From Trichinella spiralis (taxonomy: Eukaryota; Nematoda; Enoplea; Trichinellida; Trichinellidae): a stretch of DNA of 64,000 nt. Every line of letters starts with the position of its first letter. The first letter of the stretch is position 1. The stretch covers positions 706,473-770,472 of the forward strand of contig CM012953.1 of assembly GCA_000181795.3 (NCBI GenBank). The letters are read 5' to 3'. Positions 4,926 through 62,655 of the stretch are shown in pieces. The position numbers were made by a program, and so were the translations under genes. Below the pieces are notes generated by a model. The model searched no databases and had not been told where the DNA came from. It saw only the letters and a list, made by a program, of their open reading frames with translations.

Positions 4926-7900
4926 CTAGTTGATATTGGAGGATGCGTCAGATAATTCATTTGGACTAGGTGGCGGATTCCGTGGACTTCTGGTTAAATA
5001 TGGACGCTGCTTGTTCACTGCACAACGACGAATTACACTCGACGCCACACTACCGCTGCTTCTTGGAGAAGGCGGAGGTGGAACTGGATTACTACTTCCG
5101 CTTAACAATGGTTGACTAGCATTGGAATCGATTTCTTCTTGTTCTATTGCTAAATCCTCTGGCTCTTCTTCTTCTTCTTCTGTTATTTTCTCGTCATCAT
5201 GTTTTTCTTTTTTCTCTACAGTTGATTTTGTTGCCATTTCTGGAAACGATTCCGCAATTGCAATCGAGCCGATCATTTTCGGTTTCGCTTTACATATAGC
5301 TGCTAAATTGCTCATTTCCACCGATGCTGAATACGGTGGTGGTGGTGAATTTCCACGATAACAACTGAATGGATGAAATGGCGCCGCTTCGCCGACGGCA
5401 AACAACGATGCATTACGGTTTGCTTGAAGTAGCCATTTTCCGATTCGCTGAGCATCACTACTGCAGGTCGAAACCACTGTTCCACTGACTGGACTTGGAG
5501 GAGGATTGATCGGAGGCAATGTGATACCTATTTTTACACCACTGTCGCTATTACTGCTGCTCGATTTTCCAGTCAAATCTGGCCGACTGTGCAACGGTTC
5601 AACCGATCTACTAAGGATTGACGGTTTACCAACACCAAGACGATAACTGAAAAATGACAAAAGAAGGAAAAAATTATGCAAAAAAAAAAGAACTCATCAA
5701 TCAATAAACAAACATTCGACAATATCTGTTTAGAAATTTTGCCTGGCAAATCATACCGATATTCAACTGTGGTCGATACGGTCCTAGCACCGCTCCCTTC
5801 TGCCGTAGTTGTATTCACCAGTTCAATTTCTACTGGTTGCACATTCAATCCGTTCGGTCGACGACAAAAAGCATACATCACTAACAGAAGCACAGAAAAC
5901 ACACCAAAACCGACGACAACGACAATTATGTAAGTGACTGCATCTTTGGTAGGAAAAATTAGCTTTTTCCACTTTGAACCTGACTCTGATGCACCGCAGT
6001 ACAGTTCATCACTTCCATCTTGACACTGTTTCACTCCATCACAAAGCCATGATCTCGCAATGCACACACCAGAATGAGGTTCTAAATACAGGGGGAGGAA
6101 AGGGAAAGGAGAGACAAAAAACAAAGCTAAATTTCATCATCGTGTTCAAAAATAACAAAACATCCTTACCTGGACCAGCACAGTGAAACTGATTCGCAGG
6201 TTCACTACAGAAGCAATATTCATCAGAGCCATCTTCACAATCCGGCTGACCGTCGCAGATGTTGAGTCGATGAATACATTTGCGCTCGTTGGCGCATTCA
6301 AACTCGTCCAACTGACATCGTATGCACGTTTCACTTTCGTCACTTCCGTCCGCGCAATGAACCACTTTGTCACAATAATTACTGTGATCAATGCATTGCA
6401 ATTTATCTTTACACTGCCATTCCCACTGGCGACACTGGACGACGGGCAAACATCTGACTCCACTGCTGTCCAACGCCATGTTCTCGGGACAAGCGCACTC
6501 TGCTTCCAACGGGCGATTATCCGGTTCAACTTTCAACAAGCACAAATGACTGCAACGCTTCTGCAAGCACGGACTTCGGCCGATCACGGCCATACCTGCC
6601 GTGTCGCCGTCGACTGCCAAAACGCTGGTCAAATCACGCAAACGTTCCACAACCGTTTCCCGACCATTTCCAGAATTTTTGTTCACCATCTCAACTTTGT
6701 TCACACCTTGGTTAACGAAGTACATCGTCTGCTTGAAAATTGTCAAACTGGACGGATGATCAACGTGGTAGACCAGCGTCTTTCTGCTTCGACCCCTGCA
6801 ATCAACGCTCGATATGTACTTATAGCCCAGATCAATCCAAAAAATTCGATTTCCGTCCCCGTCAAAAGTCAAAGCTTCCGGATGAGCAATATTTTCAGAC
6901 ACGATGAAGTGACAATTCGAGCCATCCATATGACACAGAACAAGTCCTGCGGGAGGTCCGTGATTTGCAAACAGCAAATATCTAATCGAATATTATTTGT
7001 TATTTTTCTCGTGTTGCATTTTGAAAAAAAAATCTGTTTAATGCACACCTCTTCTTAGGGAACAAACTCACAGCCCGAGGTCTGTATTCAGGTGACGCTA
7101 CAATACCACCCAGCGGTCGAATATCGTTGCTGTTGAAAATTCGTGTCGCGTTCAAGGTGTTCGTATGTTCACAACTCCAAAACATCGTCTGCGAATACGG
7201 GTCGAAAGCTATATCATACGGAGGCTGTTCAGCGTCGAATCGAGACAATTTTATCTCTTCAGTCTGTATAGATTATAAAATTTGAAAAAAATAAATTTCT
7301 AAATGCTTTCATGTGATATGGACGTAAACAGAAAACAAATACACCATTACCGTTCTACCACTGTCCATTGCCCATCTGAGGGTGTTTCTGCTCATTTTGT
7401 GGTCCGAAACGGTGCTCAACCAGAATATCCGCCTGTTCAACGGATCATATTGCAACGAACGTACGCTGGTCTGTTGATTAAACGGCAAAGTCATCATCGG
7501 ATAATCGTCAATGTCGTGTCGATCTTTCACTTTCAACCGAAGAATGAAACCATTGTGGGATATCAGTAGAAACGTCTCCGGTGCTGCAGAAAGTTGATCA
7601 GTGAGATGAGTTTCAATATTAAAACACGAAATTAATTACCAACGCAAGACCGACGGTCGGCAGCAAGGGCGAAGTGAGTTGGACACGCACAACGGCAAGA
7701 TCGATCCGGTGCGGAAATGAACAAACTTTCACAGTGTCTTTTCTTTATCACGCACTGGTTCCAACCTGAAAATCCAAATCCACAATTGGACGAGTAAAAA
7801 GAAACAGAGAATCGAGATTTAAAAAAATTTGAAATGCAATGAAAAGCTCGAATCAACCTTTCTGCTTCAGCGCGTGCACGGCAACCAAGTTGATGATGAA

Positions 7901-10900
7901 ATGCAAATCCAAGTGCAAAGTTGAACGATTTTTGCCGGTTGTTTTGTCGCAAATTTCAATAGCCTGCTTTCTCCAATTTGCCCAGTACAAAAAGTCGCCG
8001 TATTCGGTCAACACGTACGGCTGTATGGACCGTTCGCGTACAATCAGCCGACGCGCACTTCCGGTCAAATCGATCGACTGGATACTGGGCATGTCCACTT
8101 CTGACCAGTAGAGTCGATCGTTGACGTAGTCGACAGTCAACGCGAATATCCGGCCCACATCTTTCAACAGTGTGATTCGATTTCGTCCGTCCAATTCGGC
8201 GCGTTCCAGCCGCGGCGGTCCCAACCATTCGGCCCAGTACAAATATCCAACAACGGGATGCACGACCAACGCCCTTGGATTAGTGCCACGCCAGACCACT
8301 ATTCGCCTAGATTTGCCGTTCAAGTCGGCCATTTCGATCATGTGATGACCCGAGTCGGACCAGTACATGTTCTCGGCTAGCCAGTCGATGGCGAACCCTT
8401 CGGGATGTTCAATACTCGAATTGATCAGAACTTCAATTCCACTCCCATTCATGTACGCTCGAGATATGATCTGTGAAATAGAAATTTTCACATACTTAAT
8501 AATGCAGTTCAGTTGGAAAATTTACTCCCGACGATCCGTATCTTCCTGTCCAAAATATTTTATTCTGACTGTAGCAATAGTCGAGTGCAATTGGTTGACT
8601 GACATTCAACAAACGAAGCCGATCCAAATTCGCTAATGTGCTGGATAGCGAAACTCGCAAAATATCGTTCTAAAAGCATCAAACGTATATATATATATTG
8701 GAAATGTAAAATATTTGTTTAATCCTACATTATCCCGTTGAGTGAACATCAAAAATGCAACTGGAACTGTGCATGTTGTGCCATCTTCACCAAGTTCCCA
8801 ACCTATGGGACAAAGACAAACTCGACCAGTAGGACGATAAAGACACAAGTGAGAACAATTTCCATTTCGAATACTGCAGTCGTTTGTAATGTCTGAAATT
8901 ACAAATCTCTTATTATTTTTCACACAGCTCTGCTCTTTTATTAATAGAACAATCTTACGGAGAACTTTTGTCGAATAAGCCGCTTTGATACCCATCAAAT
9001 CAGCCATGTTTTCATGCAAATCGGTTTGATCTTTTCCGTCAACTTTATGAGCACGGCACAATGACCGTCGCTCCCAATCACTCCAGTATACATAGTCGCC
9101 TAAACAATATTAATAATAACAAAAATAATATTCAAAATGTTCAAGTGGAAAAATTACCCAACAATGAGAAACCGTAAATGTGACCGTGGGATTGTCTAAG
9201 TGTTACACGTCTGCTCAGAGCGTCGACCATGTCGGCACTTTCAATTATACCGACCGTCGCTTCAGCCCAGTAGACACGTCCATTTTCAATGTCCAACGCA
9301 AGACCGTTCGGCCAACGCTTGGCATTGAAACTGATCCAAGTTGACCGTGAAGAACCATCCAAATAGGCACGTTCAATTTTCGGTTTTGCTTCATCCCAAT
9401 CTGACCAGAACAGCAATCTGCACAAAAAAAACAACAATTAAATATTTATTTTTTTAAAATTTATTCAATAAAAGTGTAAAGTGTACCCTCTCATAGGGTC
9501 GACAGCTATGGCTCGAGGTTGACTCAAACCTGTGGAGATCAAAATTCTTCTTGCCGTGCCATCCGAACGGGCTACTTCGATGCGATCCATTTGCGCATCA
9601 GTCCAATAAACATTCCTAGCAACCCAATCAAACGCAATACCATCGGATAAACCGAATTCGTTCATCACAATGTCGGTCTCTTCTACAATTTAAATCGATA
9701 CGTTTTTCAAAAAGCTTCGTTATTCAATGCAAAAAATAAAAATTTCATCATCACCTGAACCGTCAAGTTTTGCTCGGCGAATCATTTTCTGATCATTGTC
9801 TGACCAATAAACAAATTTCTCCACTGGATCATAGTCAACAGCTACCGCTTGTTTAATACTTTGCACGTTCAACGCGTAATCTGAATAATCCGGTGTATCT
9901 AAAGACAATATGCGAATATCCGAACGCCGAGCCACTATTAAAATTTCTTCAGGACCTGAAAATGAAAAATACACACATTTACACATGTGCATATGCAAAA
10001 TTGATTTCGAAAAAAAAAAACAAATTACCATCAAGACAAGTAATATTATCAGGAGACATTTTCACACCCGTCGGACAACCGCAGGACCAATACGGTGCTT
10101 CAGGTATCAGAAAACATAAATGACTGCAAACAGCATTATTTTCACATGGATTTTCTTCTTCTGAAAGAAAAACATATATGTAGTAAATAATAGTTTTTCA
10201 CATAATCTCAAACACTAAAGAACTCACTATTCGGCTGGGAACGTGAATCATAAATTTTCAAAGCGTACGGCTTGATCTGATGTACCCGCAATCGTTCCGG
10301 ACGTACGCAGCCTTTTATTGAACACCAAAAAATGCCAGCATCATAAATATCACTCCAAAAAACTAACGACTAAAATTTAACTTGAATAAAATCGTTTCCT
10401 CCAATAATAATATTTAGTGTGCAAATGTGAACCTCAAAAACTGCCAGTACAAATGGACGAGACAAATTTTTCACTACAACAATTAACATGGAGCCGTCGA
10501 GACGAGTGGATAAAATTCGATTGTCGTCGTTGTCAATCCAATAAATTCGTCCCTCGCCGTGGTGGACGGTCAAACTTTTTGGCAATGAATAACCCGATCT
10601 GAAAATCGTCTTACGATGACTGCCATCCAGCCACGCCCTTTCGATTGAATGTCGGTGAGCGAAATTGTGAAAAAAGATATAACTGTCGAAAAAGAAGAAA
10701 AAATTCATTTGTATTTTCAAAAATTTTATTCATAAATATTCTCATTTATTATTGTACCTGTGAATCGGATCAACTGCGATGCCGTGAACGTTGTGCAAAT
10801 TTTCAAAAATTAGCACTTTGCGATAAGCTGGCATGTGATCAACGTTGACCACTTCGATTCGATTTGTTTCCAAATCGTACCAGTAAACTTTATTCGTTAC

Positions 10901-11672
10901 CCATTCGACGGATATTGATCCAGAAGATGGGAAAACAATTCGAGCAACCACTGATAGTTCCTGTTATTTGAAAATATAAATTAAAAAAAATAAATAAACA
11001 TAAATAAATAAATATATATATATATATTATTGCACATAACAACTTCATTCATTCATTCATTAAAAATACTTTTATCTTCAAAACTATTATTATAATTGCA
11101 ATATTAACTATACAATTAAATTACTATTACTAAGAATTCTTACATATATATATAATACATATGATTCTTATACTTTACTCTCTTCATCTGAATAATTATT
11201 CCATCAACTCCATTAAATTTTGTCCTGTTGCAACTAAGAAAAACAAAAAAATTTGCTCAAAATAAACTTTTTTCTATGTCTAAACTATTTCTAAATTTTA
11301 AAAATGCACAAAAATAAAATCTTTAATAAAAAGTGTAATTTTTATTGATGATCATACTTGATGTGTTCCTCTAACATTTATTTTAACAAGCTGGTCATGA
11401 TTGTCTGTGTAAAAGACCAGATCATCTTTGATGAGCACATCCATCGCCATGCAGCTTTCCAAATGACGCACAACTGCAGTGTAATTCTTTTTATTCTCAT
11501 CGTACGATACAATACCAATTTCTTCAGTTTGATTTAAAACCATAAATTTGGGGAAATTCTCTATACAAAAAAATATGTATAAGGAAAACACACAAAAAAA
11601 TATTTTTCACATACCCGGCGAACCGATACAGTGGAGCGAGAGCAAAATTAGGAAAACATTAACAATATACAT
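4926..11672 (-). CDS. LRP5/6: LRP5/6 (Arrow)-type Wnt co-receptor
   Basis: Nineteen exons from ATG 11672 to the stop at 4926 join in phase to about 1,712 residues (human LRP6 is about 1,610). Exon ends on the minus strand include 11672-11615, 11560-11358, 10960-10758, 10682-10433, 8470-7858, 6981-6170, 6081-5757 and 5646-4926. The order is signal peptide; four YWTD beta-propellers, each followed by an EGF module (EGF1 10160-10029, EGF2 8892-8729, EGF3 7765-7640, EGF4 inside exon 17); three LDLR-A repeats with DGSDE cores; one membrane helix (residues about 1413-1440); and a 270-residue tail. The tail has three PPPSP motifs ([27 protein letters not shown]) and one PPPPY. In LRP5/6, phosphorylated PPPSPxS motifs bind and inhibit GSK3 and recruit Axin. 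This layout separates it from LRP4 and megalin. Divergent from the HIPK gene. Confidence 0.95.
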
Positions 11673-14321: not shown

Positions 14322-19965
<5,644 letters not shown>

Positions 19966-21560: not shown

Positions 21561-22754
21561 ATGCTTTTTCAATTCGCACTGCTTCTTTATTTTTTCGATG
21601 TCGCATGTTCCGATGTGCCTGCCGAGAACTACCCAGTATGCTTTCCAGTTTTCGATTGAACTTTCATAAATATAAATTAATTTATTATTAACATTCAACA
21701 ATAATTTTCTACATGATTTGACTTATTTCTAAGATTGGGCTGAAAACTAATTATAAGAATCACATCAATAACAAGCTCTACGACTATTTGCAAATGAAGT
21801 TCAGATGGCCAAATGGTGTTGTACCGTACACTTTCGTTGACACGCACGATTGGTTAGAAACCTGTGTCAAAGATGCAATGAAAACCATAGAAAATGTATC
21901 TTGTATTCGGTATGATTTTAGCTTATTTAACGTGAAATCAATGAGAAAATTTGTTTTACTTCATTTTCAGCTTTGTACCTTACAATGCAACGGTGCACGA
22001 TTCAATTGGTTACATGTCGATTGGAACGATCCGAAAAGGGTGCAAATCGCATGTTGGTCGAGCGCCGGGCAAAGGTTCGCCATTTTTTCTGGCGCGGGGG
22101 TGTTGCAACAAGCAGGGCACCGTTCTGCATGAACTGATGCACACGTTGGGTTTCATCCACGAGCACAGCCGTCCGGACAGGAAAAGCTACATCGATATCA
22201 ACAAGAATAATGTGGCCAAGGAGCATTGGAAAAATCTTAATAGAGAACATATTTGGGTAAGAATGCCCATCACCACAATGTACGACTACGACAGTGTGAT
22301 GCACTATTCGCCGCATGCGTTCAGCAAGAACGGAGGTGTGGTCATTAAAGCGCCTAATAATCAAACGATTGGACAACGAGACCATCTCAGTATTTTGGAC
22401 GTGTATAAGGTATGGTAAAATGTTGGGCAGTTAGGGGAGATTTTCTCTTTCCTTTTTGTATTTCAGATCAACACCCTCTACAAGTGTAAATCCTACTTGC
22501 AATGCTACGACAATTTAGAATTAAACGACTGCATAGAACAAGGATTGGTGAAGAAAAAATGTGCTGATCAAGATTGGGGTTTTGCAAATTGCAAACAGAC
22601 TTGTGGTTTTTGCAGGCCGTTCCAGAAACCTTACAGGAGATATGGCGATTGCATAGATTTCTCTCCAATGTGTCCTTGGTGGGTCAAACAGGGTCTGTGC
22701 GGAAAACGTAAATTGGTCAATGAATGGTGCGAAAGATCTTGCAACCGATGTTAA
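21561..22754 (+). CDS. Secreted astacin metalloprotease with two ShK domains
   Basis: Four exons (21561-21635, 21734-21909, 21971-22409, 22467-22754) join in phase to 325 residues. I chose ATG 21561 because it opens a clean signal peptide (MLFQFALLLYFFDVACS). The protease domain starts near FRWPNGVVPYTF and has the zinc-binding HELMHTLGFIHEHSRPDR and the Met-turn with its tyrosine zinc ligand, YDYDSVMHYS. Two ShK modules close the protein, about CYDNLELNDC...CGFC and CIDFSPMC...SCNRC. The prodomain is very short and I see no aspartate-switch FxGD motif, unusual for astacins. The nematode NAS family has members with ShK tails; roles include cuticle processing, hatching and tissue invasion. Its 3' end is 80 bases from the stop of the opposing gene. 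Confidence 0.93.
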
Positions 22755-30185: not shown

Positions 30186-33100
30186 TCAGATCAGGATAGG
30201 AATCAATGCGGTCCTATGTTTGGGATATTGGCTGTACTTATGCCTGTACCAATCATGGGTGATTTTGGCAGCTATGATTTGATTTGTGTAAACAAAAATG
30301 AGCACATAACACCAAACATTCCAAGTCATTCGTTGACAAAGCCACACAGACAAGTATATCAGTATTTCGAACAAGAAATGTGGACATGATACAAAGTCGA
30401 ACCATCCTCCGTGTATGATGGCATGTTCATGACTGACGATGTTACCTGAAAAAGTGCCGGTGCACGGTTAGAATGGGAAAGTTGTGAGTGAAGTTTGGAA
30501 GTATAAAAAGAAAAGGTAAAACCTAAATTGTTGCGTCTTGCTGCTGCTAATATCAAAAAGCACTGATGTTGCATGTAACTTGACCAAAGAAACAAGAACA
30601 GACCGAACATTTGAACGCTGGTCATGAATGCATACGACTGCGCGGGAACATATCCTGAAAGGGGGAAAGTATAACCATTATTATAGCGTTGAGTTATTTT
30701 TGTTATTGTTGCTTGAATTTTACGGTCGTTTGGTATGAATTTCGGTGCCTCGACTAGAACAGAAAATGGCATCAAGATGTAATAAATCAACCCGAGAAGG
30801 TAATGCCAGCAGTTCATCTTGCTATCTGAATAGACGCTAATAAAAGCGCTTTCATAGAATCTTCGAATCGCGTGAAACCAAAGCAAAATGCTGCAAAGAA
30901 GTACAGTCTGTTCGTTGAGTCTTGGCGAGATCTCTGCTATCAGAGAAATACACATACTTGAATGTAGTTTTTATTTATTAAAAGAATAAATTAAGAAATT
31001 GAATACCCATATTTAAATTATTTCCACTCCGAACAGGTTTGCGTAATAAAAGCAGCATTTCTTGAAATGATTTCGAAATCAAACCGTTCGCAATGTAACA
31101 GTGAAACACGTTGAACAATGTATAGCTTGTCGTGATCACAGCAACAATGTAGAAATGAGTGAACCATCTTAAATATGAAGAAAGTTAAAAATAATAAAGC
31201 AACTGTAGAATCAGAAAATCAAAATGTTCAACTTTTAACTGCAGAATTTTAATATTTTTTCCACATAACTAACACACTACATCATTCATCGATGAGACAA
31301 CTTGAACGACAATTTAAAAATCCAACTAAAAATTGCTCATAAATGGTTGAAAATGAAAAATAATTCATGTGTCAAAAATGATCACTGGCAGAAAAGTGAA
31401 AAAAATGAATTCTTATATTTACGTGCAGTACACTGGATGAAATTGCAGAACAGAAAATATTTATAACTAAAGAAACAGATTTTTTCAAATTAATAACATT
31501 AGTTATTTTTGTGAAGAAAAATATTTCTGAAAATTCAAAAGATTGTGTTCCGGACAAAACGGCGCCGTCCTCCTCAACGTGACGTCATGTAAGCGTGCCC
31601 AAAAAACGGTTCGGACAGGAATACTGTAGACCAACTACCCTGAAAATCATTATCGCGCCGATCTGACAACCGGGGTCTGGGGTAAAAGGGACCCCATGGT
31701 GCGTAAAACATTAGCTGGTTGTTCGGCAAACAACGGCTTCTTGCACAAACAATCTCAACGGCACGTTATCAGATCTAGGGAAGCAGCGTGGTGATAAAGT
31801 CACTCAGATAAGCCATCGACGTGGTGGGCGCAGTGGTGAACAAGCGGAAAAAACTTCACAAGTAAGGCCTGACAGAAGCTAGATCGGCGCCCAGATAGCG
31901 CGCACGTCACATCCTGCGGACCATGCGGCGACTCTGTCGTTCCATTGGTAGTTCACGCTGGACACCCGTAGGGCCGCTAACCCCCGGGCTCTATATACAG
32001 GGTCAAGGACAGCGCCACGAGTTGTTTAGCAGTTGACGAGTGTGAAATATCGAGTGAAATATTGAGCTGAGAGCAGAGAAGAGCAGACTTGTTTGCAGTT
32101 GAAGAGCTGCGTTGTTGGAATTTGGAGTGACGCAGCGAAGGAAGACGATCTTGTGTGCAGTTCGGTATCGCCCCCTGTTCGGTTTTACGTTTAGTAAACA
32201 TTGCGATTAATCGACGGAGTTTGCTTTAACGCGCTTGTTTGTGAACGCGAGTGATCGCCATTGGCTAGCCATTATAGAATTGGAAGAGAAAACATACAGT
32301 CAACTAATTCTGAACTGACAAGAAAGTTGTCAGTCCACAAAACCTGAGCATCAGTATCGACAGAGCCCTATTTGTCGGTATATTTTCTGGTCCTCTGAGC
32401 CAGATTCATCTCAGGAGAACGATCTGCGGACAGGGAAGTCAAGGATGGCGTCTGCAGCGAGACCAATATCGAAGAAGCTGGCCGCAAACAAGTATCGGCT
32501 GAGCCGACTTTTGGAGGAGTTGGACGAACTGTGCATAGATCCCGTTGACGTCAATGAGATCGAGGAGCAGATTGCCATGACTGAACCACTATACGTCGAG
32601 ACCGAAGCTCTCCAGACCGAGTGGGAGAAGACCCTGAAGGATGAAGAGATGCGGAGCGCATCCGAGGACTGGTCGAAGTGTCAAAAGCGCTTCCGACAGC
32701 TGAAAGCTCGAGCGCACGTCCTGGTTCAACAGGCGCAAAGGGAACGACTGACCGATAGCGACAGCAGCAACCCCGGCAGAGTTGCCGTGCAGGCAGAAAA
32801 TTGGAACCTGCCGGAACTGGTGCCTCCGCAGTTTTCCGGGGAAGTGATGGAATTCCCCAACTTCTGGGCTCAATTTGAAGCGATCATTCACTCGAGAAGC
32901 GACCTGGACGCCGCCACGAAGTTCGTCTATTTACTGTCGTACGTTGAAGGGAAGGCGCGGAGCGCCATTGATGGAATTCCCATCACTGCGGCAAATTACA
33001 CGCACGCGGTGGAGATTCTTAAGTCTCGATTCGACCGGCCTGAGATGTTAGTGCGTGAACACATCAAGGCACTGTGGAAAGCAACACCGTGCAGCAAGAT

Positions 33101-34374
33101 GACGAAGCAGGGCATCCATTCCTTGGTGGATGAGATCAGAAACCATCTGATATGTCTCACGGCGTTGGGCAAGGATCCTTACGCCGGCAGCTTCCCTGTG
33201 AGCGAAGCCTTGATGCCCATACTCAAGGAGAAGTTCCCTCCTGAGTTGCAGAGGGCATGGAATCTTAACGTGGATTCAAAGTCAGAAACCTACGACAACT
33301 TGAGAAAATTCCTGGATTTCGCTCAACGGGTGGCAGACACACTCGCTGAAGAAAGACTCCGAGAACCCGAGTTAAGGAGGCAAGACAGGACAACCCGTCC
33401 GAAGCGAAGCAGCAGAAGACGCACTACGTCGTCTGCGGCCGCGCTCCCACCCACTACTCGCTGTCCCTTTTGCCAAGGTGGGCATGAGGCGGCTGCCTGT
33501 GAAGAGTTCCTCACGGCAGACCTCTCCACAAGAATGACAATGGTACGTAAAAAGGGCGTCTGTTTCAATTGCTTGCAGAGCGGCCACCGGGCACAGACTT
33601 GTCGCAATAGACGACGATGTGCAGTGGTTGGGTGTGGACGGGCCCATCACGAGCTCTTGCATTGAAGGAAGCCGACCGAGCAGCTCGGTTACATGAACCA
33701 GGCAACTTGCACGGCTGCATATCCGCCAATGGAGGCACGCAAGGGGTACGCCTTCAAGCTCTGCGTGCGCGCGCATACGTTGTCAACTACCGTTTGCATC
33801 TGTAAAATCTATTTTTTTTATTTATCATTGTATAATGCACAATAAAGCGCTTGTTTGTGAACGCGAGTGATCTTCATTGGGTAGCCATTATGGCATTTGT
33901 CGGCCCGGAAGAAGAACACACAGTCCACTTCTCAACTGACAAGAGATTTGTCAGCCCACAGAACCTGAGTATCAGTATCGACACAGGCCGATTTGTCAGT
34001 ACAGATTGCAATAAATTATTCCATCACAAAGTAGCAAAAATGGTTCAGTTACAATACATGAAATTAGATAAGTGACAACTTCGTTGTAATCAAAATATAT
34101 TTCAAAATACTTTTGTTTAAATAAGAAAAGTTATATTGGAAATTATGAAAATTGGGCAGAAACAATTTCTGATTTATTACCTTTTTGGAACTTGAATTAA
34201 TTCCCACTTACTGTGGCAGCCAACAGACAATGACTTTCCGTATTTGAAACAATTGTTCAACAGTGTGCTGAATTTTGGGAATTTTATGATAATCAGGCCT
34301 GGAAAAAGAACAATTGCCGTGCAAACGAGCCAGAATGCTTCAATCCAACTAATTAACATTGAATCGTGATGCAA
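30186..34374 (-). CDS. SRD5A3: Polyprenol reductase (SRD5A3, steroid 5-alpha-reductase family)
   Basis: Five exons (34374-34181, 31167-31007, 30936-30724, 30654-30523, 30445-30186) join in phase to 319 residues; human SRD5A3 has 318. The enzyme reduces polyprenol to dolichol in the ER membrane, feeding N-glycosylation. Family landmarks are VPKRWFTHFYIV, the block LLWFHAIRRFYESAFISVYSDS, the membrane segment GLIYYILMPFSVL, the cofactor region IVSHEHAIIHGGWFDFVSCPHFLFEI, and the C-terminus YSQYPKHRTALIPILI. A second ATG (MLISWIEAF) lies six codons in and could be the real start. Intron 1 is about 3.0 kb, against under 100 bases for the others, because an LTR element sits in it in antisense. Confidence 0.92.
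31541..31545 (+). repeat. 5' target-site duplication (GATTG)
   Basis: GATTG directly precedes the TG terminus of the LTR element and is repeated at 34004-34008 directly after its CA terminus. Five-base duplications are usual for BEL/Pao and several other LTR elements. Confidence 0.75.
31546..32382 (+). repeat. 5' LTR of the BEL/Pao-type element
   Basis: Starts TGTTCC and ends near GTCGGTATA. It is clearly GC-richer than the host intron. Near its start GGAC...CGGCGCCG...GTCC can fold. A TATATA box at 31992-31997 could drive transcription into gag. Its last 150 bases match 33845-34003, the remnant 3' LTR. The end point is set by that alignment. Confidence 0.65.
31992..31997 (+). promoter_or_regulatory. 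Candidate TATA box in the 5' LTR
   Basis: TATATA in a GC-rich setting, about 450 bases before the gag ATG, a reasonable place for an LTR promoter. Confidence 0.5.
32445..33665 (+). CDS. Gag polyprotein of a BEL/Pao-type retroelement
   Basis: One open frame of 406 residues from ATG 32445. The N-terminal half is charged and helical with a LSRLLEELDELC start. The central part (LVPPQFSGEVMEFPNFWAQFEAIIH, FVYLLSYVEGKARSAIDGI) matches the DUF1759-type gag region of BEL/Pao elements. The C-terminus has CPFCQGGHEAAAC, then a CFNCLQSGHRAQTC zinc knuckle, and ends at HHELLH, where pol would normally continue. Gag packages element RNA in cytoplasmic particles. No frameshift or stop interrupts it despite the missing pol. 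Confidence 0.9.
   Translation: MASAARPISKKLAANKYRLSRLLEELDELCIDPVDVNEIEEQIAMTEPLYVETEALQTEWEKTLKDEEMRSASEDWSKCQKRFRQLKARAHVLVQQAQRERLTDSDSSNPGRVAVQAENWNLPELVPPQFSGEVMEFPNFWAQFEAIIHSRSDLDAATKFVYLLSYVEGKARSAIDGIPITAANYTHAVEILKSRFDRPEMLVREHIKALWKATPCSKMTKQGIHSLVDEIRNHLICLTALGKDPYAGSFPVSEALMPILKEKFPPELQRAWNLNVDSKSETYDNLRKFLDFAQRVADTLAEERLREPELRRQDRTTRPKRSSRRRTTSSAAALPPTTRCPFCQGGHEAAACEEFLTADLSTRMTMVRKKGVCFNCLQSGHRAQTCRNRRRCAVVGCGRAHHELLH
33841..34003 (+). repeat. Truncated 3' LTR remnant
   Basis: Begins with AATAAAGCGC (a poly(A) signal) and aligns with 32229-32382 of the 5' LTR, both containing GCGCTTGTTTGTGAACGCGA. Only the 3' part of the LTR is left. The sequence ends in GTACA just before the second GATTG. 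Confidence 0.65.
34004..34008 (+). repeat. 3' target-site duplication (GATTG)
   Basis: Matches 31541-31545 and fixes the right boundary of the element. Confidence 0.75.
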
Positions 34375-36112: not shown

Positions 36113-38767
36113 ATGTACAAAGTGCTGCGACTGTCGACAAAGCGACTTTTCCACCGAAATTATGATGTATACCAAATTCGCAGATATAGCATTATTGGTA
36201 GCGTAATTATTGCACTTTAAATTTCTTTTATTTTAAATTTCGCGATGAAATAGAAGCTGTGAATGTTTTTGATTTTTAAATGTTGCAGAAAATGAACAAT
36301 TACGAAGAAAATTAAAGAATGGGATATTCAATCAGTCGATGCACAGAATGCAAGTTAAACGTTTGCTTCAAACCACCACATCAGTGTTGGCTGTGGCTGA
36401 ATCTGAATGCAATTCACCGATTGGTATTATTATTTTTGATTTGACTGTTTTGTAAAATTTAATTTTCATTTATTATTGTGTAATGCACAATAATCTAATG
36501 ATCAGCAATCTGCTTGATGACGTTAGACTGTTGTTGTTAACATTTTCAGAAAAGCATGAATTTCGCGCGGAAACTCGAATGTTACTTGACGTGGTGGCAA
36601 ACTCTTTATATTCACACAAAGAAGTAAGCATTTTGTTTGTTTATTATTTCTTGTCCATAATTTGATGATGTTCAGGTATTTGTGCGTGAGTTGATATCGA
36701 ATGCAAGTGATGCGTTGGAAAAATTGCGGGCTTTGCAAGCGACCAATGCCACCGATATCCAAACAGTGGATGAGCTGAAANNNNNNNNNNTCATGATCGC
36801 TGCTTCAGATGTGATCAAAAAGTACAGCAACTTTGTCAGCTTCCCGATAATGATCAACGAAGTGAAGGTGAACAATATGCAAGCTTTGTGGCTTTTGGAT
36901 CCGAAAGATGTAACTGAAACGATGTACAAAGAATTTTATCGATTCATATCCCATTCATCGAATGGCGAACCAATATTTACTTTTCATTTTAGGGTAATTT
37001 TTTTGTTTTTAATAATTTTTTTCTCAACTGAAACCTCTTCTCTGTCTGTTGTGTTACAATTGCAGGTAGATGCCCCGGTGAATTTGAACGCCATCCTGTA
37101 CGTACCCGATGCAGTGCCAGATTTTTTGGACATGACCCACACCGAAGTGGGCGTGCTGTTGTACTGTCGACGAGTGCTTATTCAACAATCGGCTAAGGAT
37201 GTCATTCCCAATTGGCTGAGATTTCTGAAAGGTGTCATCGACAGTGAAGATATTCCGCTGAATCTCAGCCGAGAGCTGTTGCAGAAATCTTCCATACTGA
37301 AGTGGGTTGAAATTGGCAAAATTCCACCAACTAGTAGTGTTTTGTTCACATTTTAGCAAAATCAAATCTGTCACACTGTCGAAAGTGGTCAAATTTTTCC
37401 AAGATCAGATGAAAAAGGATGCAGAAAATTATGAAGCATTTCATTCTTATTACAGCAGCTATTTCAGAGAAGGGATTTTGAAATCTCAATCACAAATTGA
37501 AAAAGTGCATACTAATAATAATTTGTTGTTTTTTAACCTTGTACTTAATAATAATTTTTTTCAGGAGGATATTGCAAAATTGTTGCTTTTTGAATCGTCC
37601 AATCAACGTCCTGGAAAGAAAGTTTCCTTCCAAGATTACTGCAGTAGAATGCAAGAAGATCAACGGGAAATCTATTACCTCTGCATACCGAAGTGAATAC
37701 CGAATTTGATTGTTTTTTAAGTTTTAATCACTCATTTAATTTGTATTTTAGCCGCTCGCTTGCTGAAGCTTCGCCTTATTATGAAGCTGTCAAAGCTGAC
37801 AATTTGGAAATTCTGTTTTGCTACCATCCAGCCGATGAAGTGACTATGCTTTCATTGAGACAGTTCAATCGGTTCAATTTAGTGTCTGTTGAATCTGCCT
37901 TACAAAGGAACAGAGCCGAGAACGAAGTTCTTGAAACGTGTAAATTTAACATATATAAAAATGTGTGTTCGTGATGTTTGCTTTATTTAAATATTTTATA
38001 GCCGATCTATCCAAAGAAGATTTGCAGAACATGTTAGAGTGGATCCAAAAGACTTTAGGGCAAGATAAAGTCAATGAAATCAAGGTTATTTTCATTTATC
38101 AGTAATAATTTTGTTATATTTTTCTTTATTCTTAATCTTTGCCAGACTACGCAAAAGATAACCACTTATCCTTGTATGATAAGTATTCTTGAACTGGGAG
38201 CGGTGAGGAGCTTTTTGAGAGCAAACGTGATGGAGAAAATGACCGATGATCAACGACTTCGTTTATTGAAGCCAACACTAGAAGTGAATCCAAAGTAAAT
38301 TTAATACTATTAAAATTTAAAAAAAAGAAATTATTTTTCTATCTGAAATATCGATTATTTTTTCTTCTATCAAAGCTGCTTGTTTGATTAGATAATTTCC
38401 AATTTGATATGATTAGAAATATTGATTGCAATGGCTATTTGATGAGAATTGAATGATAATTTTTCCGTTGCTTTTAAGCCACCCGGTGATCGTTAAATTG
38501 GCAAAACTGCGTTTCAAGGATGAATCACTGGCAACTGCCATTTTGGAACAGGTGAGAATGTTAAATGAACAATCAGTAGTAATATACCATTATCTCGAAC
38601 GGATATTTTTATTCAACAAAGCTGTTTGTACAATAATGGTTTGCTCGTGTTTATTCCAGATATATGAAAATGCATTGATAGCCGCTGGTCTTGTCGATAA
38701 TGTTCAGTCTGTTGTCGGGAAGGTGAACAAATTGATCAGTGAAGTGACGCAGAAATTGCAAACGTAA
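36113..38767 (+). CDS. TRAP1: Mitochondrial HSP90 chaperone TRAP1 (incomplete assembly)
   Basis: Twelve exons: 36113-36197, 36289-36423, 36550-36623, 36676-36993 (with the gap), 37066-37301, 37357-37504, 37565-37692, 37752-37939, 38002-38084, 38146-38295, 38479-38561 and 38660-38767. Exon 1 encodes a basic, hydroxylated presequence (MYKVLRLSTKRLFHRN) fit for mitochondrial import. Landmarks are FVRELISNASDALEKLR, YSNFVSFPI, LWLLDPKDV, DSEDIPLNLSRELLQ, YYLCIP, SPYYEA and the end IYENALIAAGLVD. TRAP1 is an ATP-dependent chaperone of the matrix. The 10-N run removes roughly 100-150 residues of the ATP-binding domain, including the expected DxGxGM and the glycine-rich lid. This is an assembly loss, not evidence of a degenerate protein. 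Confidence 0.93.
36781..36790. other. Unsized assembly gap in the TRAP1 ATPase domain
   Basis: Ten Ns lie between codons for TVDELK and MIAASDVIKKYSN. In HSP90 proteins these positions are well over 100 residues apart, so several hundred bases are missing. Confidence 0.9.
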
Positions 38768-46935: not shown

Positions 46936-48879
46936 TCACGTGAACAAACAGATAACCCCGTCGGCACCGCTGGTGAACAACCAGGGCTGAGTAGGGTGGA
47001 AGGTGCAGTCGAGTATGGAACCAACTGTTTCCACTTTTCTGTGACTTCGCAGTATTTTCAATGGAACAATCAACGGCATTTTGTCGTAATCGTTATAGAC
47101 GGTGCAGTGGAAAATTTTGGCGGTGGCGTCGTCGGATACGCTGGCGAACAATGGATACCGGCCATGACAGGCGACCGCTCGCACACCACTGTCATGGTAG
47201 CGGAACACTTTGCACGGCTTGATCGTATTGTCCATGTCGTACCAGTTCAACCGACCGTCCATGCCGCCAATCACTGCATCATCGCCTTTGGGATGTATTG
47301 CCATGGCGGATATGCAGGATACGGAAGTGGTTATCTTTTTTGTCAAAATCTGCTTCACCAAATTGAAAACACGCAAATAACGAGAACTGGCAACGTACAA
47401 TTGCGGCCTGGTCGGATGGAACAATATTCGTCTAGGCTGTCCTTTTGTTCTTGCAAATGGAATTTGTGTTTTCAACGTTCCCAAATGGTGGACAAGAATG
47501 GTGCTGCTTCCAGAGCCGGGTGCCATAGTGGCCAGATAGTCGCCGGAGACGTGCCAAATCACTTGAGATATCGATTTGCTATGATTTGCCACCGCTAACA
47601 AAAAACAATCCTGCTCGTCAGAGGGCCGCTGCCAGTCGGTATCTTTGGAAAAATTTTTCCAAAGATTATCCACAAATATATCCGTGTCGTCCAGTTTCTG
47701 TTTGTTGCCCACGCCGGAGCTGATGAGCAACAGTCGCTTACCAGAAGCCACAGCCAACAGTGCAAACTTACCTCCGGGATACCAGACAATTCCATGCACT
47801 GGTTCTGCACACTTTTTCACTAGCAAACAACGGCCCGTAGACACTTCCCAAATACGAACAGTACAATCATCCCCTCCGGATGCCAAATACCGTCCACCAG
47901 CTTCCACGTCCACGGCTCTCACTGGTCCTTGATGACCAGTGTAAACTATGGAAACTTCTGTAGGGAAAGGTCTCAAATCGCTTGGTTTGGGCAATTGTGG
48001 TAACAGATCATTAGGATCGACATTCAGACGCATCTTCTTCTTCCTCGGCGCCCGGTACAAATCTAAGCATCGCCTATACCGATCTTTCAAGTACTTATCG
48101 TAAGCAGGCACCAATCTCAAACTGGAATATTTTTTCGGTATAAAATCCAACCGCCTATCGTATTCATCTTGTTCTTCCCACTCTTTGCGCTCTTTTTCCG
48201 TAAACAAATACTCAGCTGGAGGATTGTACGATTCTGCGTGGTCAGGCAGTTTCATTTTCGGTGCAGGCAAATGCATTTTCAATCTCCACTGCTGGGTTCT
48301 GGACAACGGCTTCGGCGTTTCGTCTTCCCACAAATCGTAAAACACTGGCTTGGATGCTTTTTTCCCCATTTTACTCTTCAACCTTCTCCGTGCTTTTATT
48401 GATTTAACAAGGAGACGCACTTTTTGTTCTTCAAGTTTCGAAGGGATAAAATTGCGCTTGGCCAGCGAAGTGTTGCATACCGGCATTGTCGCAGTTTCGC
48501 CAGTAAAAAAGTCAACATACCGTGGATAAGGATCATAATCCGAATTTGGATACCGTGCTTTCTGTATATTCTGTATTACATCTATAGCATCATCGCCAAG
48601 AACTACTTTTCCGCCCGTCTGCGGATCAATAACTGTACGCCAATAATTCGGATCTTCCATCTGGGCCAAAAACTCATCAATATCATCTTCTTTCTTACTT
48701 ATTTTCGGTATTCGAAGACCATCTAAACTATATCCAATGTGATCATATGCGTCGTACCAATGAAGAGGCACATTGCCAATAGTGTTGCGAATATCTTCCT
48801 CATCACTAGAATCAGAATAGTCGACAGTTGGATTTGCTTCAGTCTCGACATCAGGCACGGATTCACTCGTTTCTTTCAT
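46936..48879 (-). CDS. BOP1: Ribosome biogenesis protein BOP1/ERB1
   Basis: A single uninterrupted frame of 647 residues. BOP1/Erb1 is part of the nucleolar PeBoW complex with Pescadillo and WDR12, needed for 27S/32S pre-rRNA processing and 60S assembly. After an acidic N-terminus (DYSDSSDEED) comes the BOP1NT domain (residues about 38-305), with VPLHWYDAYDHIGYSLDGLRI and VDFFTGETATMPVCNTSLAKRNF. A WD40 propeller follows, beginning VYTGHQGPVRAVD and ending FTSGADGVICLFT. It is slightly shorter than human BOP1 (746). It is the only long gene here without introns. The dsRNA-binding gene lies just downstream on the same strand. Confidence 0.97.
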   Translation of the reverse strand: MKETSESVPDVETEANPTVDYSDSSDEEDIRNTIGNVPLHWYDAYDHIGYSLDGLRIPKISKKEDDIDEFLAQMEDPNYWRTVIDPQTGGKVVLGDDAIDVIQNIQKARYPNSDYDPYPRYVDFFTGETATMPVCNTSLAKRNFIPSKLEEQKVRLLVKSIKARRRLKSKMGKKASKPVFYDLWEDETPKPLSRTQQWRLKMHLPAPKMKLPDHAESYNPPAEYLFTEKERKEWEEQDEYDRRLDFIPKKYSSLRLVPAYDKYLKDRYRRCLDLYRAPRKKKMRLNVDPNDLLPQLPKPSDLRPFPTEVSIVYTGHQGPVRAVDVEAGGRYLASGGDDCTVRIWEVSTGRCLLVKKCAEPVHGIVWYPGGKFALLAVASGKRLLLISSGVGNKQKLDDTDIFVDNLWKNFSKDTDWQRPSDEQDCFLLAVANHSKSISQVIWHVSGDYLATMAPGSGSSTILVHHLGTLKTQIPFARTKGQPRRILFHPTRPQLYVASSRYLRVFNLVKQILTKKITTSVSCISAMAIHPKGDDAVIGGMDGRLNWYDMDNTIKPCKVFRYHDSGVRAVACHGRYPLFASVSDDATAKIFHCTVYNDYDKMPLIVPLKILRSHRKVETVGSILDCTFHPTQPWLFTSGADGVICLFT

Positions 48880-49818
48880 CTTAATAATACAATGAAAACA
48901 TTATATTCTTAACAATACAATAAGAAAAGATTTAATTCACATGATACAACTAACAATTAATATAATCTGCATGCTAAAAAATTTCAATAGTTTCAAAGCA
49001 TATCACATAATTTCGAATATGCAATTATAATTCAAAATCTTTCTCCAAACTTGCAAAAAAAATTAAAGTAAAATATTTACATTTATCAAAAGTTTGAATA
49101 CAGTGTCCAGCAGTAGAATAACATGTTGCAACTTCTTTTCATGCTTTCTACAATTCTAACAACAATCTGTGTAAACAACATTCGATGATACAAAAAAAGT
49201 CGATGGTAAAATCTGGTTCAAAAATGTATTAATATAGAAATGTTAACAAAAGTGCACCATAAACAGAAGACAGAAACAGAATATAACCATTTATGCAACG
49301 AAATAACGCACTATTTATAATTCAGAGCGTTCATTTTAAAAATCATGTCACTGCATTTATTAGTTCAATATTAAAATTAATTTACATACATTGCTCTAGC
49401 TAAATCGCCTGGAAGCCTAGATGAATACAGTACTTCAATACATGAAAACTCAATAACCTTCTAATTTTTATTAAAAATACCATAAACTTTTAAGCTAAAT
49501 AAATTACCAACAACGAAACAGTTTTGTATATGAACTACATATTGCTACAGTACTTAGAAGAAATGCATGTTTATGTTTATTTTACGATTACGTTAAAAAA
49601 TTTTTTTCACTTAAAATAAAATTTAAAAATAAAAATATACCTATAAAATTATTTGAAATACAAAATATACAAATGTTTTTCATTTCGTTTATGTAATATT
49701 ATCGTATGAATTAAAACCTGCAATACAATTGTTACGGTTTCTTCTTTCGCGAAAGTTTATTCTGCCACTTTTTTTCTGAATTTAATTTCAGTTTTAAACT
49801 CCTTCGTAATTATTTTAA
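48880..49818. other. Intergenic between divergent BOP1 and the hnRNP U-like gene
   Basis: About 940 bases of AT-rich DNA with the promoters of two divergent nuclear-protein genes. No exon or structured element is seen. Confidence 0.5.
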
Positions 49819-59701: not shown

Positions 59702-62655
59702 CGTTTTGAAACAGAATATTTCAGTGATAAGCAGAAATCAGTTGAAAATATGGTTATGAGCAATGAACGAAATGAAACGCAAGTAGGAAACAGTATGGAA
59801 TCGGACTCTCATGGCTGCTTTGATTTTATCGAACAAAAAATAGTTCCATTTGGTGAATATTACATGACTGATAATTGTCTGTTTTGCATGTGCAACAAAA
59901 CGGAGCGATTTTGCAAACAAGTATTTTCTTGTTCTTTATTTTACCTATTAGTTTTAATATTTGTTTATTTTGATGAATCATGGTAATTCTTTATTTTATT
60001 TAATAGCTTTAACAAATGTTTAATTTTGGTGAACCATGGTAATGGAATTTTGTTAAAATAACTTTTATTTGATACAGCTATATTTAGCCTTTTTCTTAAG
60101 CTGCAGTGTAAAATTGACTTTTGCAAATGTCAAATGTAAATTTACATTCAAATTGTGAATTTTATTTGCTTGAACGATGCAGTGAGTATTTTGCAAAATT
60201 CGTCAAAATGTTAATTTGCTTTCTGGTTGAACATTAGAATTTGTTATTGCGTGCAGCACTGATTTTATGTTCACATAATCTTTATTGAAAATTAATTTAT
60301 GTTAATAGTATATAGATACTAATTTTTTAGTTGAATTCTTTTTCTTTGAAAACTACATTGCACATCAAATACGAAATTGCTTTTTCATAATTAAGCGAAA
60401 ATGTTTGTGTTGGTGCGATGAAATATGCTTCCGCTGTAAAACTTGCAATGTTCAGTAGTTTAAAAATTTGTGTTTTCTATCAGTATTTTCCCGTGTTTCA
60501 TACATTTATCTTGTATCACCGCAGTTTCCTCGCTTGATTTATGACCTGGCAGTCTATTTCATAGATATTTTCCAAGAATTTTAATTTTTTTTTAGCATTT
60601 TCAACGTCTTTTGAAACTTTTTTTTTAATTAAAATATTTTAATAGAAATTGAATAGCAAAGTGGTAAATTATGTTACTTTTTGCGAGTGTGAAATGACTT
60701 TTTTCAGTACAATGAACTGTTTAGTGTTGGACGAACTTTTAGCATCATAATTTTCCATTGTGAGAATCTTCATGAAAATTTTCAAATTATTTGAATATGA
60801 CAATCAGCGCCCAATTCTATTTCGTAATTTGTGCAGCTTTTGTCAAACATTTGTTGCCAATAATATGATGAATACAAATAATTTATACAAAAGAGATTTC
60901 TATTTTAAGAAAAATTAATTTTCCCATGCATCTATATATATTTTTTTTTCTTTCAAACATTTCAGTTGAATATTGATTTCAATTGCAGTTGGTGGAATTT
61001 TTTTTATAAATTCATTTTTCTTGAAAATTACCAACTTTAAACGGTTTTAAAAATTTGAAAACAAATATTTCGTTTTCGCTGCTAATTTGATAGATGATTT
61101 CTTTTGCTGCTTGTTGAAGCTGTTGTTTACTCAGTAGCAGTTGGTGGGAAATGAATTCGTTGATAATAAAATGCTATTTTTGAATTGAATAAAAAGATAA
61201 CATGAAATAATAGCATTAGTAGTAGTAGAAACGTTTTTTCTTTTAAATTTTATATTACAGATTGGATGTAGTCCAATCAAATGTGACGGAATTGTGCACA
61301 AAGATCCGAGAAATTGTTGTGATGTGTGCACGCCATCAGTTATTTTAGGTAACACGAGATTTTCGACTGTTTGTTTGTTTATTTTATTATATTTTTTCCA
61401 GGAACTCCTGTTGAACATGCCAGTGCGTCGTTGAAACTCGGTGGCATGACCATAACTTTTCTCATAATAGTGTCGACGGTATTTTTCATGCTGCATCGTC
61501 TACGCAGGAAACGTCTCCTGATCACTGTCAGGCGTAAGCTATGCTTATCTGTTTGTTTGTTTTTTTTTGCACTTGTGAAGAAGATATTTGCAAATTTTTT
61601 TTTAAAATTAACTTGCTTGCCGTGAACAAATTTCCCATGATTTTTGAACGGCAAGGTGAAAAGTAGTTTCTTTGTGTTTCGGTCAATTTCACCTTTTCCA
61701 CTTTTTTTTCACTCGACAAATCGAACAATCAGTACAGTTTGCAGTCATTAACCTTTGCATTGCAAGTATATTTTGAAGGCCTATTTTGAATTCCAACTGA
61801 AGCGGATAATTTTTTCCTATTGCAAAATGATGCTTTCAGTTCGGTGCAATTAGTTGGATGGGTTTTTTTAACATTATTGATCGATTGTTGTTATTGTTGT
61901 TTTTTTTGATTTAATTTGAAATTATATTATTATTAATAATGAGAAAACAATTTCCCATTTGAGGATGTCATTCTGGGGATGGAAATTTTCAGCCGTTTCG
62001 TGAATCGTTCGATCGTTCTTGTGTTGCTTGTCCTAATCCTCCTCCTCCTCCTCCTCGTCGATCGCCGAGAACCGTTTTCGACCGTCGCCCCAACGCGGCA
62101 AGAGCAGTGAATTACAATGATCCACCGCCGCCGTACTCTGCCACGGTCGCCCAGCCGCCGCCCCTGTTGACTGCTTCAGCCATCGCCCGGATGCCGCATT
62201 ATTTCAACGGTCCGCCGCCACCCTACCCGTGCTCGAGTGGGCGTCAACAGCCCGCGGCGGAGCCGTCTGTGGTGCACTTGCACCGGTGCCCCGCCCACCG
62301 GAACAACGGCGCCGGACGTCGAAGCTTGCCCGAACTATTCTCCCCAACTCAGTGGTCCAATTCCAGAAAGCCCAGTGATGAGGAAGTTGGGGGCGTTGGT
62401 GAATTGCAAGCTGCATCCAACTGCTGTAGCAGCAACAGCAACGCGTCGGCACTGCACAATATCAGGGACGATGCGTCGTCAATAGCAAGTACGGGAACAA
62501 CAACAACAACATCATCCGACTGCAGCAATAGCACTTCTAGTAGTGGTGGCAATGGATCATCGACCAGTTGTTGTTCAACTGAATGCGAGTGTCAGCATTA
62601 TTTGAAAGATGACCACTCGTCTGTTCCGAATTCTACTCAAGTTAATCTCCATTAG
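59702..62655 (+). CDS. VWC-domain single-pass membrane protein with PPPPY tail (5' end uncertain)
   Basis: Exons 59702-59920, 61261-61348, 61402-61533 and 61964-62655 join in phase. The ectodomain has a VWC-like cysteine pattern (CFDFIEQK, NCLFCMCNKTERFCKQIGCSPIKC, CCDVC). A membrane helix follows (MTITFLIIVSTVFFMLH) with a basic stop-transfer RLRRKR. The cytoplasmic tail of about 240 residues is Pro-rich, then Ser/Asn/Cys-rich, with two PPPPY motifs (DPPPPYSA, GPPPPYPC), which bind WW domains of NEDD4-type ubiquitin ligases. The first usable ATG (59750) gives no signal peptide, so an upstream exon is probably missing. DGCR2/IDD-like proteins combine VWC and one membrane pass and are the nearest idea, but I do not recognise the family for sure. 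The 61964 acceptor was chosen because it keeps the frame. Confidence 0.6.

Follow-up and report, generated by a model that had tools for sequence, protein, structure and literature searches.

Receptors of the LRP5/6 type (LRP5, LRP6 and Arrow) are recognized by four YWTD-propeller/EGF pairs followed by three LDLR-A repeats, a single membrane helix and a cytoplasmic tail with several PPP[ST]Px[ST] motifs. An asparagine (NXI) pocket in the first propeller is used by NXI-type inhibitors in vertebrates. In LRP4 the LDLR-A repeats, eight in number, form an N-terminal block. LRP1 and LRP2 (megalin) carry many clusters of LDLR-A repeats in a very large ectodomain, and their tail is of the NPxY type. 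Caenorhabditis elegans has several divergent beta-catenins. According to PMC8711157, both tardigrades and C. elegans have lost arrow/Lrp5/6. The DNA analyzed here is a stretch of 64,000 nucleotides from the nematode Trichinella spiralis (assembly GCA_000181795.3, contig CM012953.1, positions 706,473 to 770,472), which is called the window. It contains a gene on the minus strand that is read from its sequence, with a probability of about 0.87, as an LRP5/6 (Arrow) orthologue and most likely a cell-surface Wnt co-receptor, because the architecture, the tail motifs, the alignment scores and the trees with an outgroup agree. A preliminary description of this DNA had proposed the same identity, which the architecture, tail motifs and outgroup trees support, and had stated that C. 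elegans has no clear LRP5/6 orthologue, an absence that is already in print.

The gene consists of 19 exons. All 18 introns are GT-AG and the reading frame has no internal stop. Pfam matches on the protein are Ldl_recept_b (2.6e-76, 12 stretches), FXa/EGF (4 stretches) and Ldl_recept_a (3 stretches), and these domains follow the order of LRP5/6: after the four YWTD-propeller/EGF pairs come the three LDLR-A repeats and a single membrane helix. The coordinates, strand and domain order of the preliminary description agree with the gene model, the Pfam matches and the tail motifs. The features are as follows.

4926..11672, minus strand: predicted LRP5/6 gene, 19 exons, 1712-amino-acid protein, stop codon at 4926-4928
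11619..11672, minus strand: putative signal peptide, residues 1-18, a hydrophobic N-terminus by reading
10229..11618, minus strand: propeller 1, residues 19-285, across introns, from the sequence and an AlphaFold model of the P0001 counterpart
10571..10585, minus strand: LPKSL of propeller 1, residues 188-192, WPNGL in other LRP5/6, part of the lost asparagine pocket
9954..10152, minus strand: EGF-like 1, Pfam
8960..9953, minus strand: propeller 2, with the highest identity to koala LRP6 (49%)
8768..8881, minus strand: EGF-like 2, Pfam
7859..8767, minus strand: propeller 3, with E708, W767, R792, D811 and W850 kept (LRP6 numbering)
7641..7763, minus strand: EGF-like 3, Pfam
6576..7581, minus strand: propeller 4, the most diverged, 27% to koala LRP6
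6447..6575, minus strand: EGF-like 4, Pfam
5996..6437, minus strand: three LDLR class A repeats (6437-6324, 6320-6213 and 6209-5996, the last one split by an intron), Pfam
5867..5941, minus strand: membrane helix, residues 1412-1436, mean hydropathy 2.81 over 21 residues
5484..5504, minus strand: PPPSPVS, at the place of motif A, motif scan
5328..5345, minus strand: PPPPYS, a degenerate motif between the first two PPPSP, by reading, its letter inferred from the order
5058..5078, minus strand: PPPSPRS within VPPPPSPRS, at the place of motif C, motif scan
4962..4976, minus strand: PPPSP, at the place of motif E, motif scan

The gene is already known in databases under the name LRP6. With 'Low-density lipoprotein receptor-related protein 6 [Trichinella sp. 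T9]' (P0001, 26 members) the window protein shares 97% identity, and with the Trichuris suis hypothetical protein M514_00586 (P0002) 56%. Among the best 120 of 903 relatives, the bulk are full-length LRP6, LRP5 and Arrow proteins, and the remaining ones listed are 29-38% identical, with koala LRP6 at 34%. With the Trichuris protein as another guide, 14 of the 18 introns were recovered exactly and three more were off by 3-9 nucleotides at one end. This check used a spliced aligner written for the analysis, with a small splice-site bonus; it misplaced the first intron and put one extra intron into the low-complexity tail. An in-frame intron of 66 nucleotides without stops lies at 8893..8958 of the window (minus strand), where P0001 has 22 extra residues that the Trichuris protein does not have.

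The cytoplasmic tail of 276 residues contains PPPSPVS, PPPSPRS and PPPSPNE in that order, and so has the several PPP[ST]Px[ST] motifs expected of LRP5/6. The three PPP[ST]P cores start at residues 1521, 1663 and 1697, two of them in the full PPP[ST]Px[ST] form, and none of 2000 shuffled tails reached three. Each of 14 LRP5/6 tails has three to four such cores; they are absent in all nine LRP4 tails. The motifs are preserved in both Trichinella and Trichuris, including an identical stretch of 18 residues; an E-rich stretch of the window protein is missing in Trichuris. By reading, relatives carry a further tail motif about where the window protein has PPPPYS, and no NPxY uptake signal is present in its tail.

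Alignment scores separate the window gene from its paralogues in the same genome. A Patella LRP6 guide reached 1318 on the window gene, with 918 and 920 at two paralogous loci; for a Saccoglossus LRP4 guide the order is reversed, 841 on the window gene and 1299 and 1204 at those loci. No second LRP5/6 was found among the five other loci of this genome with PF00058 matches. The paralogous loci, at C3:10.98 Mb (L012, L013) and C3:2.18 Mb (L014, L015), are LRP4-like and LRP1/2-like in rough models.

A careful tree of propellers 2-3 with EGF 1-3 (647 columns, 23 rows, outgroup included) placed the worm proteins with LRP5/6 at 100/97 and with arthropod LRP5/6 at 99/99. Approximately unbiased (AU) tests, made on quick trees that included the outgroup, rejected the grouping of the worms with LRP4 (p 0.0052), with their own megalin-like paralogue B (p 0.0016) and with LRP4 plus paralogue A (p 0.00038). 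The rows of the worm's own paralogues were built with an LRP4 guide and may favour their LRP4-like propellers; that of paralogue B has a long branch, 4.83 changes per column in the careful tree. Of 34 rows, 9 were left out before the outgroup-free tree and 12 before the outgroup trees and the careful tree.

The same genome contains other parts of the pathway. PF00110 matches mark seven Wnt loci. Five of these group with human Wnt4, Wnt5, Wnt16, Wnt2 and Wnt11, with starred support for Wnt5, 16 and 2 only, in a reference set that included no WntA. Two are uncertain and have long branches, L022 falling weakly with Wnt10 on the Wnt1/3/6/9/10 side and L023 with Wnt8; none of the seven is a clear Wnt1, 6 or 7. 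Frizzled matches occur at four loci, possibly including Smoothened. DIX matches occur at two, and an Axin_b-cat_bind match of 29.5 bits (cut-off 23) lies about 1.2 kb from one of them on the same strand. A protein-query search found two beta-catenin genes, both with IIDSGIHSAG, which includes the DSGIHS degron, and a C-terminal WYDTDL. The two are near-identical, at C3:1.038 Mb on the minus strand (L035) and C1:14.044 Mb on the plus strand (L036), and are probably a recent duplication. Two PF00514 loci considered as beta-catenin were read instead as importin-alpha-like and p120-like. There is also a TCF-type HMG box, with identities of 70 and 58% in its two exons and, by reading, an accompanying C-clamp-like stretch.

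A Dickkopf gene lies near C1:6.63 Mb (about 6.6315-6.6337 Mb, minus strand, L032). Along with a putative signal peptide it has both of the cysteine-rich regions; the first matches Dickkopf_N at 1.6e-11, and the second scores 23.6 bits with the DKK1/2/4 Pfam model, below its cut-off of 27, and matches DKK1 in the PDB at 8.1e-9. The idea that this Dickkopf has dropped its NXI motif was set aside, one NYV still being present. The gene is not a new find, a T. spiralis dickkopf having been published (PMC6425005).

In the mechanism proposed here, orthology, domain order, motifs and partner genes are as observed, and the binding and phosphorylation steps are inferred from the known family. Wnt would bridge the window LRP5/6 to Frizzled at the cell surface, and CK1 and GSK3 would phosphorylate the PPPSPxS motifs of the tail. 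The phosphorylated tail would then recruit Axin, so that GSK3 is kept off beta-catenin, which would escape degradation through the DSGIHS degron and act with TCF. Dickkopf may block the receptor at propeller 3.

A number of observations weigh against this reading. The AU test without the outgroup leaves the grouping of the worms with LRP4 standing (p 0.18); in that tree a basal position in LRP5/6 and a grouping with LRP4 are one and the same split. The outgroup itself is a single long row built with an LRP4 guide. Three proteins first assigned to LRP5/6 (P0125, P0126 and P0127) carry no tail motif and were dropped. All three were long rows in a first tree of 34 rows, where P0125 and P0126 grouped together beside LRP4; P0127 is named LRP6-like [Ptychodera flava] in the database. 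The last tail motif of the window protein has no x[ST] residue, as is also the case in all eight named protostome LRP5/6 examined. The beta-catenin-binding region of TCF was not found in 9.5 kb, and a PF08347 search, run without a positive control, gave no match. Propellers 1 to 4 are 31, 49, 40 and 27% identical to koala LRP6, below the minima of 45, 51, 48 and 34% in 108 other LRP5/6. Of 15 positions of Dickkopf contact in propeller 3, the window protein shares 6 with koala LRP6, other protostomes share 5-9 and LRP4 shares 4-5; a special retention of these contacts was considered and set aside as weak. Finally, the asparagine pocket of propeller 1 is missing from the window, P0001 and P0002 proteins.

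In this pocket, all 109 other LRP5/6 rows have W183, N185, R141 and E73, and 108 of them have W242. The rows come from 128 proteins, of which 17 were set aside because they did not carry two or more PPP[ST]P within their final 300 residues; P0001 and P0002 were then taken out, and by name more than half of the 109 are vertebrate. The three worm proteins have L at 183, K at 185, H or L at 141, D at 73 and I at 242. In the window protein WPNGL has become LPKSL, and all of positions 28, 52, 73, 141, 183, 185, 202 and 242 are altered, with E115 kept; for 28 and 73 the two alignments used give different residues and agree that a change has occurred. Pocket and contact residues are numbered as in the structures of LRP6 with peptide and with Dickkopf. 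A PDB search for interface alignments gave, among the matches listed, LRP2 and LRP4 only. In a smaller, slower alignment the window protein matches 2 of 10 pocket residues and Trichuris 1 of 10, compared with 6-10 in eight other LRP5/6 and 7 in three LRP4. Since W183, N185, R141 and W242 are present in six of six LRP4 rows, the pocket is ancestral and was lost in the worms, and it was not treated as defining for LRP5/6.

Pocket loss and the poor conservation of all propellers are what would be expected if the gene were LRP5/6 by descent and its job had shifted off beta-catenin signaling, for example to uptake or adhesion, with propeller 1 remodelled. The worm stem branch, 1.4-2.2 changes per column and the longest among LRP5/6 rows in the outgroup-free and careful trees, points the same way. 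This alternative survives best and is still improbable: the tail motifs are retained alike in Trichinella and Trichuris, the Axin motif, the degron and Dickkopf are all in the genome, and by reading the tail has no NPxY uptake signal. Propeller 1 is not decaying: its identity between Trichinella and Trichuris (56%) is near that of the LDLR-A repeats (56%) and the tail (57%) and above that of propeller 4; propellers 2, 3 and 4 are at 69, 73 and 51%. An AlphaFold model of propeller 1 of the P0001 counterpart, built from four sequences, still forms a propeller, with a mean predicted local distance difference test (pLDDT) score of 73 and residues 268-327 below 50. In the PDB the six top matches of the model are all propeller 1 of LRP6, with a TM-score on the query of 0.75-0.76 and a root mean square deviation of 6-7. 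Fold and constraint persist. NXI-type ligands are predicted not to bind propeller 1, because the pocket is lost; contact with ligands and inhibitors is probably left to propellers 2-3.

An LRP4 or a megalin/LRP1-type receptor that has come to resemble LRP6 by convergence is less likely still. It draws on the same long stem branch, on the outgroup-free AU result and on whole-chain PDB scores, which are highest for LRP2, a protein that offers more propellers to match. Against it, the grouping is rejected once the outgroup is included, and the loci at C3:10.98 Mb and C3:2.18 Mb fit LRP4 better. The protein has a PPPSP tail and three LDLR-A repeats just ahead of the helix, and at positions 708, 792 and 811 of propeller 3 it has the LRP5/6 states, from which all six LRP4 rows differ. 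Grouping with LRP4 or megalin, which the preliminary description had named as grounds for abandoning the assignment, is therefore not borne out with the outgroup. Contaminant or host-derived DNA, the other such ground and a usual worry with a worm that lives in mammalian muscle, hardly deserves credence, as the assembly totals 53.1 Mb in 14 contigs (at least three of 15-20 Mb), and the gene is found 0.7 Mb inside one of 20 Mb and is far closer to the Trichinella and Trichuris proteins than to koala LRP6, and orthologues in two genera make both chance and contamination unlikely.

The reading as an LRP5/6 orthologue bears on the history of nematode Wnt signaling. Both genera, Trichinella and Trichuris, are placed in Dorylaimia, Trichinellida, that is, in clade I, which was the condition set in the preliminary description. 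A true LRP5/6 exists in clade I, and its absence in C. elegans therefore looks like a secondary, later loss. Of the earlier proposal of a canonical co-receptor present in early nematodes and lost later, the early presence follows from the tree and the C. elegans loss is in print (PMC8711157); the word canonical needs qualifying, the propeller-1 pocket being gone. The search for other nematodes with the same domain order and PPPSP motifs, which that description had suggested, identified Trichinellida and, among the candidates scored, no other nematode. A search with helix and tail scored 7977 candidates and gave only the Trichinella and Trichuris clusters, and one with propeller 1 gave 14 proteins from 1007 candidates, none named as another nematode and five unnamed (of which P0124, P0125 and P0126 were inspected in part); both searches need shared exact words and so do not prove absence.

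One publication (PMC5010673), judged by its title, reportedly treats Wnt in the nurse cell of the Trichinella host. By title and abstract opening, no publication on nematode LRP5/6 was found among those listed, in a literature of mostly open-access coverage. In the available part of PMC3890508, 'Wnt receptor pathway' terms are over-represented in Romanomermis/T. spiralis/Tribolium clusters without C. elegans orthologues, and BAR-1 was not found in the two clade I worms Romanomermis and T. spiralis. Such data from other nematodes were stated to be unavailable in 2019 (PMC6647475, available part). Dickkopf was not found in C. elegans according to the part of PMC6425005 at hand, and the main text of PMC8711157, as available, does not mention 'Trichinella'. 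As far as the literature was searched, the tested orthology, the co-occurrence with pathway parts and the lost propeller-1 pocket are new.

A tentative scenario, possible and rather doubtful, is that the line to Trichinellida, perhaps the nematode stem, lost the propeller-1 pocket and rebuilt LRP5/6 with propellers 2-3 at its centre, and retained Dickkopf, Axin and a beta-catenin with the degron. If true, this would be a half-way receptor, canonical Wnt reception having weakened before the C. elegans line dropped LRP5/6 and Dickkopf. It would also bear on the suggestion in PMC8711157 that tardigrades may have lost just the Arrow-dependent Wnts (Wnt1, 6, 7, 8 and 10): an LRP5/6 beside likely Wnt2, 4, 5, 11 and 16 and no clear Wnt1, 6 or 7 would speak against it, within the limit that two Wnts have no assignment, one of which leans weakly to the Wnt1/3/6/9/10 side.

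C. elegans has stood as the model of nematode Wnt signaling, and a chain from LRP5/6 to a degron-bearing beta-catenin in Trichinella shows its state to be derived. Trichinella is a nematode in which canonical Wnt signaling could be tested directly, and its receptor a natural experiment, an LRP5/6 whose propeller-1 pocket was removed by evolution.

The rest of the window holds several other open reading frames (ORFs), all read by eye. An ORF at 14322..15425 (plus strand) contains the start of a protein-kinase domain, HIPK/DYRK-like, and 21945..22418 (plus strand) has an astacin-like zinc metalloprotease motif, HELMHTLGFIHEHSRPDR. The ORF at 32319..33665 (plus strand, 448 residues) has CCHC knuckles and is retrotransposon-gag-like, that at 46936..48900 (minus strand, 654 residues) resembles the ribosome-biogenesis factor BOP1, and that at 61963..62655 (plus strand) is proline-rich with PPPPY motifs. 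Runs of X in the translations occur at about 16.6-16.8 kb and inside 36661..37356, an HSP90-like ORF.

Among known systems, the window protein departs from LRP1 and LRP2 (megalin) in its Pfam layout, in the AU test and in the reading of its tail. LRP4 shares the four YWTD-EGF pairs and the single membrane helix. It differs in having no PPPSP tail, and loci that match LRP4 better lie elsewhere in the worm genome; the window protein has neither the tree position of LRP4 nor its N-terminal LDLR-A block. The Dickkopf of T. spiralis is the likely inhibitor of the window receptor, and PMC6425005, in its available part, makes no mention of a worm LRP5/6. The Trichinella sp. T9 and Trichuris suis proteins are orthologues and share the loss of the pocket. 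The window protein resembles LRP5, LRP6 and Arrow in domain order, in its three LDLR-A repeats and three PPPSP motifs, in tree position and in the residues of propeller 3, and differs from them in the missing propeller-1 pocket and in one degenerate tail motif.

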